From an uncultured archaeon (GTDB lineage: Archaea; Nanobdellota; Nanobdellia; Pacearchaeales; GW2011-AR1), in NCBI GenBank assembly GCA_903873955.1, contig CAIQQL010000131.1, positions 1-42,038 on the forward strand: 42,038 nt of DNA. Direction: 5' to 3'. This document shows positions 23,408 through 39,021 of the stretch, in pieces; position 1 is the first letter of the stretch; every line of letters starts with the position of its first letter. The notes under the pieces are model-generated. The model was not told the origin of the DNA, searched no databases, and worked only from the letters and a program-made list of their open reading frames with translations. The position numbers and the translations under genes were made by a program.

Positions 23408-24009
23408 TGCGCCTCTTGAACAAACGAGGAATTATGGGGAAGCTCTTAAGTGCTATCCCTGTCCTTTTTATCCTCTTTTTTGTCATTATCATCTTCTTTG
23501 TCCTTACTGCCTCGATGAGTGGCACTCTTTTTTCCAGCGGTTCAGGGAATTCTCTCACCCTCTCTCCTGTCCTTTTACCTCCTAGTCCCCTTCTTTTCCA
23601 AGAAATTGCGTTTCCTGTCCAAGAAAAGGGCCAGACCCTACTAGTCTCGGATAGCCTCATCCTTTGGGACAAGGGGCAAATCACTCCGGAGCAACTTTCT
23701 TCAGCATTAGAGAAATTACCTGTTCCTGATGGTACCTGTCTTGCCCTTGCTGCCGCATTGGACTCAAATCCTAGCGATGTTAGCTTTTCGATCGATGGTG
23801 CGCCTGGGAACAAACTGGTTCTCTTTCTCGAATTCCATAATGGAAAGGTCACCAATAGATGGTGGGTCTATTCTTATCTGAGTGATTATAAGAAAGCCAA
23901 TCTGCTCTATCCTCTCCAGCTCACCTATCTCTCTGGTGGAAAATCCCGAACCGTGTTTGCTGAATCCTATCTCGGTCCGTGCCTGTCTGCCGCAGGAGGA
24001 TCATCATGA
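23407..24009 (+). CDS. Pilin-like membrane-anchored protein
   Basis: 200 aa; MRLLNKRGIMGKLLSAIPVLFILFFVIIIFFVLTASM; shares one base with the upstream stop. Confidence 0.72.
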   Translation: MRLLNKRGIMGKLLSAIPVLFILFFVIIIFFVLTASMSGTLFSSGSGNSLTLSPVLLPPSPLLFQEIAFPVQEKGQTLLVSDSLILWDKGQITPEQLSSALEKLPVPDGTCLALAAALDSNPSDVSFSIDGAPGNKLVLFLEFHNGKVTNRWWVYSYLSDYKKANLLYPLQLTYLSGGKSRTVFAESYLGPCLSAAGGSS

Positions 24010-24443
24010 ATCGGAGAGCAAACCTTCCTATGACCCTTCTCTTTTTTGTGTGTCTGTTTTTACTTACCCTTGCGCTTTTTTCGTTCGCTACCTTCAAAAA
24101 AACCCAGGACCAAACCCTGTCAGACAGTTCTATGCTCACCTCTCAGTTGGAGTTCAAAGAGCAGTACGTCCGAGCGACAGCAAGGTCTTTATTCACCGAG
24201 GCTTTGGTGCATCCCTCTTCTGATGTCTCCGCTCAATTGCAGTCTGTAGCTGTACGCAGGGATTTGGGTTTAGTCGGTATCGGCAATCTTTTTGCAAAGA
24301 TCAGGGATAAGGACTTCACCCTTGAAGACAAAGGTGATCGCTGGGTACTGACCCTGAAAGACGTTTTTGTGACCTCTCAAGTCGGTCAACACAGGCTTAC
24401 CCGGACATTCACAATTATCCTCGAATCTCGAAAAGGTTTATAA
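24006..24443 (+). CDS. Membrane-anchored protein of the pilin-like cluster
   Basis: MNRRANLPMTLLFFVCLFLLTLALFSFATF...; ATGA overlap; strong AGGAGG 6 nt upstream. Confidence 0.72.
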   Translation: MNRRANLPMTLLFFVCLFLLTLALFSFATFKKTQDQTLSDSSMLTSQLEFKEQYVRATARSLFTEALVHPSSDVSAQLQSVAVRRDLGLVGIGNLFAKIRDKDFTLEDKGDRWVLTLKDVFVTSQVGQHRLTRTFTIILESRKGL

Positions 24444-36709: not shown

Positions 36710-37294
36710 ATGGCTGATGTTGACCCTGTTCTTCTTGCGAAAGAAACTCAGATTTGCAAGGATTGCAAAAACATAGTTGTTGGAAAGGGAAATTTACAGG
36801 CAAGTATTCTTTTTGTTGGAGAGGCCCCTGGAGCAAATGAGGATGAACAGGGTCTGCCCTTTGTTGGTGCTGCCGGCAAGAACTTAGATGCTCTGCTCTC
36901 TGCTGTAGGTCTTAGTCTGCAGGATATCTATGTAACCAATATCCTAAAATGCCGGCCTCCACAGAATCGGGCACCTCTGCCTGATGAAATAAAAGCACAT
37001 ACTCCCTGGTTAATCTCCCAAATAAGGGAAATGCGGCCAAGAGTGGTGTGCAGCCTGGGCAATTATGCCACCAAGTTCTTTTTATCCGGGCTCAATCCCG
37101 ACTTAATGGACAAACAACCCGGTATAACCAGTGTTCATGGCAAGGTGAGGAAAATCACCTTTGAGGGCATGACTTTCACTCTTATCCCTTTGTTTCATCC
37201 TGCTGCAATCATCTACAATCGCGCCCTTTTGCCATTATGGGAAAAAGATATGGGTATTGTCAAATCAGAAATCGCGCAGAAAACGCTCGGGTAA
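36710..37294 (+). CDS. Family 4 uracil-DNA glycosylase
   Basis: 194 aa; CKDCKN, FVGEAPGANEDEQGLPFVGAAGKNLD, YVTNILKCRPPQNR, LIPLFHPAAIIYNRAL. Confidence 0.92.
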   Translation: MADVDPVLLAKETQICKDCKNIVVGKGNLQASILFVGEAPGANEDEQGLPFVGAAGKNLDALLSAVGLSLQDIYVTNILKCRPPQNRAPLPDEIKAHTPWLISQIREMRPRVVCSLGNYATKFFLSGLNPDLMDKQPGITSVHGKVRKITFEGMTFTLIPLFHPAAIIYNRALLPLWEKDMGIVKSEIAQKTLG

Positions 37295-37430
37295 CTTTTT
37301 CGGCTCCTCTTCTCCCTTCTTGAGGTCATCACATGGTTTTTAAGAGTTGTGAATCTACTTTCCCGATTTAGTTTTCCTAACCTCCTAATATATCCTAACC
37401 TTATCTTTCTCATAAAGGAGGAAAAATCCT

Positions 37431-37574
37431 ATGAAGACCAAACAAAAAACAATGATGCTTCGAAGGGCAAGAGCGCAGAAAGCATGGAGGGCCTATGCAT
37501 TCTCCTCTCTTTTTAGTACCCGTCACCCTGCTGAGCAGATTGCCGTTACCTCTCCTTTTATTTTTAAACGCTGA
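37431..37574 (+). CDS. Small basic ORF (47 aa) with strong Shine-Dalgarno
   Basis: Manual translation MKTKQKTMMLRRARAQKAWRAYAFSSLFSTRHPAEQIAVTSPFIFKR*; AAAGGAGG 9 nt upstream of ATG. Confidence 0.5.
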   Translation: MKTKQKTMMLRRARAQKAWRAYAFSSLFSTRHPAEQIAVTSPFIFKR

Positions 37575-37645
37575 ATCAGTCCGGGTTTAATCGACCCGCC
37601 TCCCTTCAATGATACGGCTAATGGGAATTAACTCCTGGAACTGAT
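37575..37645 (+). ncRNA. Candidate structured RNA element (predicted three-way junction)
   Basis: Hand-folded pairings: P1 ATCAGTCC (37575-37582) with GGAACTGAT (37637-37645, one bulge); P2 GGGT/ACCC (37583-37586/37594-37597); P3 TCCC/GGGA (37601-37604/37623-37626). Confidence 0.4.
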
Positions 37646-37648
37646 GGC

Positions 37649-37671
37649 AAGCCGAGGTAGCTCGGCTTTTT
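37649..37671 (+). terminator. Bacterial-style intrinsic terminator hairpin
   Basis: AAGCCGAG-GTAG-CTCGGCTT perfect 8-bp stem, 4-nt loop, followed by T-run. Confidence 0.7.
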
Positions 37672-37690
37672 ACTCCCGCATTAAACTTTC

Positions 37691-38257
37691 CTAGTTTTGA
37701 TTATCAATATATGCAGCCTTTCCGCTCGAAACGAGTATTTCCGCGATTTCTATTTGAATATTTACCAGTTGTCCTCCTTTAAAGGGGCCCACTAAATTTC
37801 CAGAAATGTCAACAAACTGTTCGACGTCCTGATTGAACATCACCATCTTATTCTCCTCCTTTGGTTTGTCCTTCTTGCCATTCATCTGTTTTGCGAGTTG
37901 TTTGTCCCCTTCCTCAAATGCCTTCACTAGCTTGTCAAACATCTCCTTTTCAAACGGGAGCATATTCTCAAAATCCCTTTTCATCATACCTGTCTCAGTC
38001 GCGACAAACACCAGACTGAGCAGCTTCTTCTTTCTGATCCTGATCAACTCCTTGAAAATCGAGATGGAATTCTCATATTGTTTCTTTGCCTTATCTACCG
38101 CATCGGCAAACATTTCATCTTCTTTGACAACCGCCAGATTCTTCTTTTCGGCAAGGTAGTCGCAAATATCTATCAGGAAGTTCTTTGGCAACTGCTGCAG
38201 GATGTCATTATATTTCTCTTTGCGCAGGAGATCGTACAGGTCTGTGTAGCTTAACAT
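37691..38257 (-). CDS. Archaeal GINS complex subunit (Gins51-like)
   Basis: 188 aa; N-terminal YTDLYDLLRKEKYNDILQQLPKNFLIDICDYL; C-terminal B-domain VEQFVDISGNLVGPFKGGQLVNIQIEIAEILVSSGKA. Confidence 0.75.
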   Translation of the reverse strand: MLSYTDLYDLLRKEKYNDILQQLPKNFLIDICDYLAEKKNLAVVKEDEMFADAVDKAKKQYENSISIFKELIRIRKKKLLSLVFVATETGMMKRDFENMLPFEKEMFDKLVKAFEEGDKQLAKQMNGKKDKPKEENKMVMFNQDVEQFVDISGNLVGPFKGGQLVNIQIEIAEILVSSGKAAYIDNQN

Positions 38258-38355: not shown

Positions 38356-39021
38356 ATGAAAAAAGAGTTGAAGATCTATCTTTTCAGGCATGGCCGGACT
38401 TTTTACAATGAACGGCATATCTTTACGGGATGGAAAGATGCCAGGCTAAGCCCCAGAGGCATTCAGGACGCTAAGGTCATTGCCCGAAAGCTTGCCCATG
38501 CCAAGATTGACCTTGCCTTCTCCTCTGATCTAAGTCGCGCGAAACTGACCTTAAAAGAAGTTCTGCGAAAACATCCTCCTGTCAAAGTGATCATCGATCG
38601 CCGCTTGCGTGAACGTTCTTATGGTTCTCTTGAAGGAAAAAGTCATCAACATTATATTTTAGATGAAGGCAAAGATAGCTACAAGACGCTCCTTCATTGG
38701 CATAAGATAGATCATCTTCATGGAAAAGAACGTGTTGCCTTTGTCAAGGCCCTTGGTGAAGCAGAACTACGCATTGTCCGGCGTAGTTATTTTGTAAGCC
38801 CTCCGAAGGGGGAATCAGTTAAGATGGTTGAAAAAAGAGTTAACTCCTTCATCAAAGACCTTCTCAGCATCATGAAGCGTGATAAAGTCAATGTGGCAAT
38901 CTCAGCACATGGTAACTCCATCAGACCCTTCAGGAAATATTTTGAGCATTTGTCCATTCAGGAGATGATGCAGCTTGAGCAACCTTTTGATTCCTATTTT
39001 GAATACACCGTAAAGGTCTGA
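38356..39021 (+). CDS. Histidine phosphatase family / 2,3-BPG-dependent phosphoglycerate mutase-like
   Basis: IYLFRHGRTFYNERHIFTGWKDARLSPRGIQDA, LRERSYGSLEGK, VAISAHGNSIRPFRKY; start at 38356 (MKKELKIYLF) preferred over 38185. Confidence 0.85.
   Translation: MKKELKIYLFRHGRTFYNERHIFTGWKDARLSPRGIQDAKVIARKLAHAKIDLAFSSDLSRAKLTLKEVLRKHPPVKVIIDRRLRERSYGSLEGKSHQHYILDEGKDSYKTLLHWHKIDHLHGKERVAFVKALGEAELRIVRRSYFVSPPKGESVKMVEKRVNSFIKDLLSIMKRDKVNVAISAHGNSIRPFRKYFEHLSIQEMMQLEQPFDSYFEYTVKV

Follow-up and report, generated by a model that had tools for sequence, protein, structure and literature searches.

A candidate lineage-specific small protein gene with a terminator-like hairpin ahead of a convergent GINS gene in an archaeon

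The spacer at positions 37295-37690 of a 42-kb stretch of DNA from an uncultured archaeon raises the question of whether it holds a small gene, a functional RNA or only a set of chance features. The window, by which we mean the whole 42-kb stretch analyzed here, is contig C131 of a genome of 1.23 Mb in 154 contigs, and the spacer lies between a uracil-DNA glycosylase (UDG) gene on one side and a convergent GINS gene on the other. The initial annotation had proposed a small basic ORF, a three-way-junction RNA and an intrinsic terminator, far from the next plus-strand gene, and its coordinates proved correct when read off the sequence. That gene starts at 38356, about 685 nt on, as had been said; the GINS gene, absent from that description, ends on the minus strand 20 nt beyond the T-run. 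The features of the locus are the following:

36710..37294, plus strand: family 4 uracil-DNA glycosylase gene, upstream (Pfam UDG 4e-35; TIGR00758 above cut-off)
37337..37344, plus strand: best TATA-like box upstream of the ORF, TTTTTAAG, weak (5.2 bits; predicted start near 37366)
37381..37386, plus strand: CCTCCT, potential 6-bp pairing with the Shine-Dalgarno sequence across a 29-nt loop (leader fold z = 0.03)
37416..37421, plus strand: Shine-Dalgarno (SD) sequence AGGAGG, 9 nt to the ATG
37431..37574, plus strand: basic ORF of 47 aa, probable lineage-specific small protein gene (SD and codon use)
37575..37645, plus strand: 3' UTR stem closed by ATCAGTCC/GGAACTGAT, predicted single interrupted rod (folding; z -2.2)
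37649..37671, plus strand: 8-bp hairpin AAGCCGAG-GTAG-CTCGGCTT followed by a T-run, intrinsic-terminator-like (sequence; single copy in the genome)
37691..38257, minus strand: convergent gene for a GINS replication complex protein, Gins51-like (Pfam Gins51_C 4.3e-06, 26.8 bits against a cut-off of 27)

The ORF and its strong SD are directly visible in the DNA, and the basic character noted at the outset is borne out by a computed pI of 12.0 and a net charge of +9.6. Two marks of a small gene, a ribosome binding site and gene-like codon use, are present. In the genome, AGGAGG stands in front of 3 genes out of 141, and not one of 389 spurious ORFs has it (our genome statistics cover 456 kb of the 1.23 Mb). 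The coding score of 0.10 per codon corresponds to the 33rd percentile of chunks of real genes and is exceeded by 9% of the spurious ORFs; codon use is thus gene-like but not decisive. Structure prediction gave a single long helix comprising residues 2-31 (pLDDT 71), a single-sequence result to which we attach little weight. Sequestration of the SD by the CCTCCT stretch was rejected, the leader fold being not significant. We regard the ORF as a probable genuine gene of this lineage, which would be translated from AGGAGG.

Protein conservation, a third mark of a small gene, was not found, all matches being at chance level. No homolog of the ORF was detected in 181 genomes of the family or 371 genomes of the phylum, nor in phages, plasmids, viral contigs, Pfam, NCBIfam, PHROGs or the PDB. 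Matches in six genomes (G001, G011, G047, G137, G192 and G330) had E values of 0.009-0.25; the genomic context in G001 does not look orthologous, and the match in G330 is located within a 1064-codon frame. In the only other genome of the genus there is a homolog of neither the ORF nor the RNA, and its GINS gene has neither such an ORF nor the hairpin beside it; the RNA element has no sequence relative among 200 genomes of the order. GINS homologs, by comparison, occur in 36 of 37 genomes (own genome counted), the relatives mostly carrying the label Candidatus Pacearchaeota, and no such ORF lies downstream in the GINS loci read. A repeat element was discarded, as the hairpin is single-copy in the genome and the region has no second copy. 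Two short direct repeats with equal 157-nt spacing hint at an internal tandem duplication, which we rejected because 73 of 500 shuffles score equally well.

Does an SD-led small ORF make sense in this genome? A second AGGAGG-led small ORF is found on contig C42 of the same genome (21293-21490, minus strand; L056 1293-1493). Its 66-aa product represents a family of conserved small membrane proteins with a C-terminal CxxC and a Lys/Arg tail. Relatives of this gene occur in 12 further family genomes, and nearly all copies read carry a strong SD. It follows that standalone small genes led by an SD truly exist as a class in this archaeal family, although a minority one. Separately, small SD-led zinc-ribbon-like proteins (CxxC...CEVPFKPTEGKPVYCxxC) recur near GINS or UDG in relatives, at L094 17819 (minus strand), at L080 after UDG, and downstream of GINS at L047 5068-5274 and at L048.

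Leaderless starts seem to dominate among the genes of this genome, with a TTTATA-like box peaking sharply 29 nt ahead of the ATG (the window and contigs L055-L127). We scored the region upstream of the ORF with a position weight matrix (PWM) built from these leaderless promoters. The scan revealed no strong TATA box and none good enough to show a standalone unit: the score of the best box compares with a median of 2.0 bits and a 90th percentile of 7.0 bits for random 136-nt stretches. This box is positioned at -93/-94 and there is none near -41, the position of a TATA-like box in most of the SD-led genes used for comparison. Given this weak promoter, co-transcription with the upstream glycosylase gene is possible. 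The ORF would then be a second cistron, translated from its SD on a UDG-ORF mRNA ending at the hairpin, which is compatible with the reading as a lineage-specific gene. Both genes are on the same strand, 136 nt apart, and a promoter-like CTTAAAAA box stands about 30 nt ahead of the glycosylase ATG, whereas the ORF has no strong box. Archaeal genes in internal positions commonly have an SD. On the other hand, a T5 directly past the glycosylase stop (37296-37300) could already terminate transcription, and of the flanks of two UDG relatives that were read, one carries a zinc-ribbon gene that is SD-led but unrelated, and the other lacks an ORF of this kind. Taken together, we consider a second cistron rather unlikely. 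The glycosylase gene itself is patchily distributed (8 of 37 genomes including its own, with no match in the second genome of the genus), and relatives with 58-70% identity exist.

The P1 pairing described in the initial annotation is indeed located immediately past the TGA of the ORF: ATCAGTCC at 37575-37582 pairs with GGAACTGAT at 37637-37645, with pair probabilities mostly near 1.0. The three-way junction that P1 was thought to close is, however, not the favored fold. The MFE structure is a rod of -22.4 kcal/mol in which P1 persists and the inner pairs differ, and the named junction fold, at -16.3 kcal/mol, is 6 kcal/mol worse. With probabilities of 0.02 and 0.004 for the inner hairpins GGGT/ACCC and TCCC/GGGA, respectively, we rejected a three-way-junction RNA on energy and pair probabilities. 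Shuffling gave z-scores of -2.2 for the P1 element alone, -3.0 for the element with the terminator (500 shuffles), -3.5 for the hairpin alone and -0.8 for the full 341-nt interval. About 1% of the 1678 windows of 100 nt in a scan of the 42 kb reach a z of -3, and the structure is unexceptional for this stretch of DNA. The strongest fold of that scan lies elsewhere, at 24251-24350 on the minus strand (-30.2 kcal/mol, z -5.2, 200 shuffles), antisense to an ORF at 23979-24443 (plus strand); it is predicted to be branched, a true multi-branch fold unlike the 3' UTR element.

That no known RNA family was recognized at first agrees with the Rfam scan, which gave no match above the gathering cut-off at the locus. 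Matches to SAM-III, sR14 and NPPA-AS1_3 were at chance level only, and inspection by eye yielded no convincing boxes of a box C/D or H/ACA RNA. These results bear on the proposal that the locus encodes a dual-function small mRNA/ncRNA or riboregulator with a three-way-junction RNA. The near-certain P1 pairs directly past the stop codon and the z-score of the element with its terminator speak for it. Yet the rod is the better fold, Rfam returned no match, no homologs were found for a covariation analysis, and no plus-strand gene lies directly downstream to be controlled. With the junction disfavored and homologs lacking in the genomes searched, we found no positive evidence for such a function and regard it as very improbable.

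The perfect 8-bp GC-rich hairpin with its T-run, by contrast with the junction, can be read in the sequence just as described. The hairpin extends over 37649-37668 and is overlapped by T5 at 37667-37671, two T pairing with AA; the GC-rich stem of about 7-8 bp with a U-run directly after it has the form of an intrinsic terminator. We defined sites strictly as a stem of at least 6 bp with 5 GC followed by 4 T in 5 positions, and this is the sole such site in 206 kb of the genome, where a Markov model predicts about 0.7. A looser definition gave 12 sites in 456 kb. Only two of these, the present site and one on C42, come shortly after an ORF in the sense orientation and do not fall within another gene; the remaining 10 are inside genes, antisense or have no convincing gene end just before them. 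Both well-placed sites follow AGGAGG-led small ORFs, the 47-aa ORF and the 66-aa gene, and about 0.1 coincidences of that kind are expected among the other sites (estimated from the site counts), but the analysis set out from one of the two, so the pairing is weak evidence. Moreover, the copies read of relatives of the C42 gene have T-rich tails and no hairpin, so that the feature is not conserved. We hold it improbable that hairpin plus U-run terminators are used specifically on SD-led standalone small-protein genes, other genes ending hairpin-free.

As hairpin-T sites are rare or misplaced in the genome, this archaeon does not generally rely on hairpins to stop transcription. T5 follows 31% of the genes and A5 27%, which is no clear enrichment. 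In archaea U-runs of 4-7 suffice for termination and a hairpin is not required (PMC8716108), so the earlier remark that hairpin terminators are unusual there holds both for the site counts of this genome and in the literature. A hairpin of Haloferax nevertheless halted 59% of transcription in a reporter (PMC7237163). At the present locus the hairpin and U-run, to judge from their form, most likely end plus-strand transcription ahead of the convergent GINS gene.

The site count also touches on the possibility that the spacer is non-genic, i.e. that ORF, SD and hairpin are chance features and at most the T-run terminates the glycosylase gene. The ORF is not conserved and lacks a strong promoter, the fold is ordinary for the window, and the strict count is near the Markov expectation. 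Against this, AGGAGG, an ATG, a gene-like ORF and the strongest hairpin-T site of the sample all fall within 260 nt, and we consider a purely non-genic spacer doubtful, though conceivable.

Instead, we think it probable that the locus is a lineage-specific, SD-led small protein gene whose end before the GINS gene is formed by the hairpin and U-run. An SD-started small gene would occupy the gap between the glycosylase and GINS genes and be transcribed either from its own weak promoter or by read-through from the glycosylase gene. At 37667-37671 the GC-rich hairpin and the U-run would halt the polymerase, keeping it from entering the GINS gene from the wrong side, and the paired stretch past the stop codon would be a 3' UTR with no separate function. 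The absence of an ORF or RNA homolog and of a strong TATA box counts against this reading, as do the unenriched T5 and a strict site number of one per 206 kb, not far from expectation.

This is an ordinary finding apart from one mild oddity, a terminator of bacterial appearance in a genome that otherwise hardly employs such signals; alone it would surprise few specialists. If the hairpin works as a terminator, it would be a clear bacterial-type stop signal in a DPANN archaeon, a group in which termination has hardly been studied. Small proteins are poorly annotated in these genomes, and the ORF is a further candidate.

With bacterial intrinsic (Rho-independent) terminators the locus shares a perfect 8-bp GC-rich stem, a 4-nt loop and a T5 at the stem end. 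It differs in that it sits in an archaeon, where hairpin-less U-runs are the rule (PMC8716108), in that such sites are very rare in this genome and in that termination is predicted here. As in the SAM-III (SMK box) riboswitch (RF01767), pairing of the SD region with a stretch upstream is conceivable, but the match to that family, at 13.6 bits against a cut-off of 45 (E 4.9), is chance. Like the dual-function sRNAs of bacteria, the locus would combine a small ORF and a structured RNA on one short transcript, though here structure, conservation and targets give that likeness no support. The locus also resembles in build the SD-led small genes of the archaeal family itself, those for the 66-aa CxxC membrane protein and the CxxC zinc-ribbon protein, which are also short, intergenic and preceded by AGGAGG; the 66-aa gene of the same genome also has a hairpin and T tail. 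Those genes show conservation between genera, with a TATA-like box near -41 in most of the copies read, whereas the 47-aa ORF is unrelated to them in sequence, an orphan, and without a strong box.
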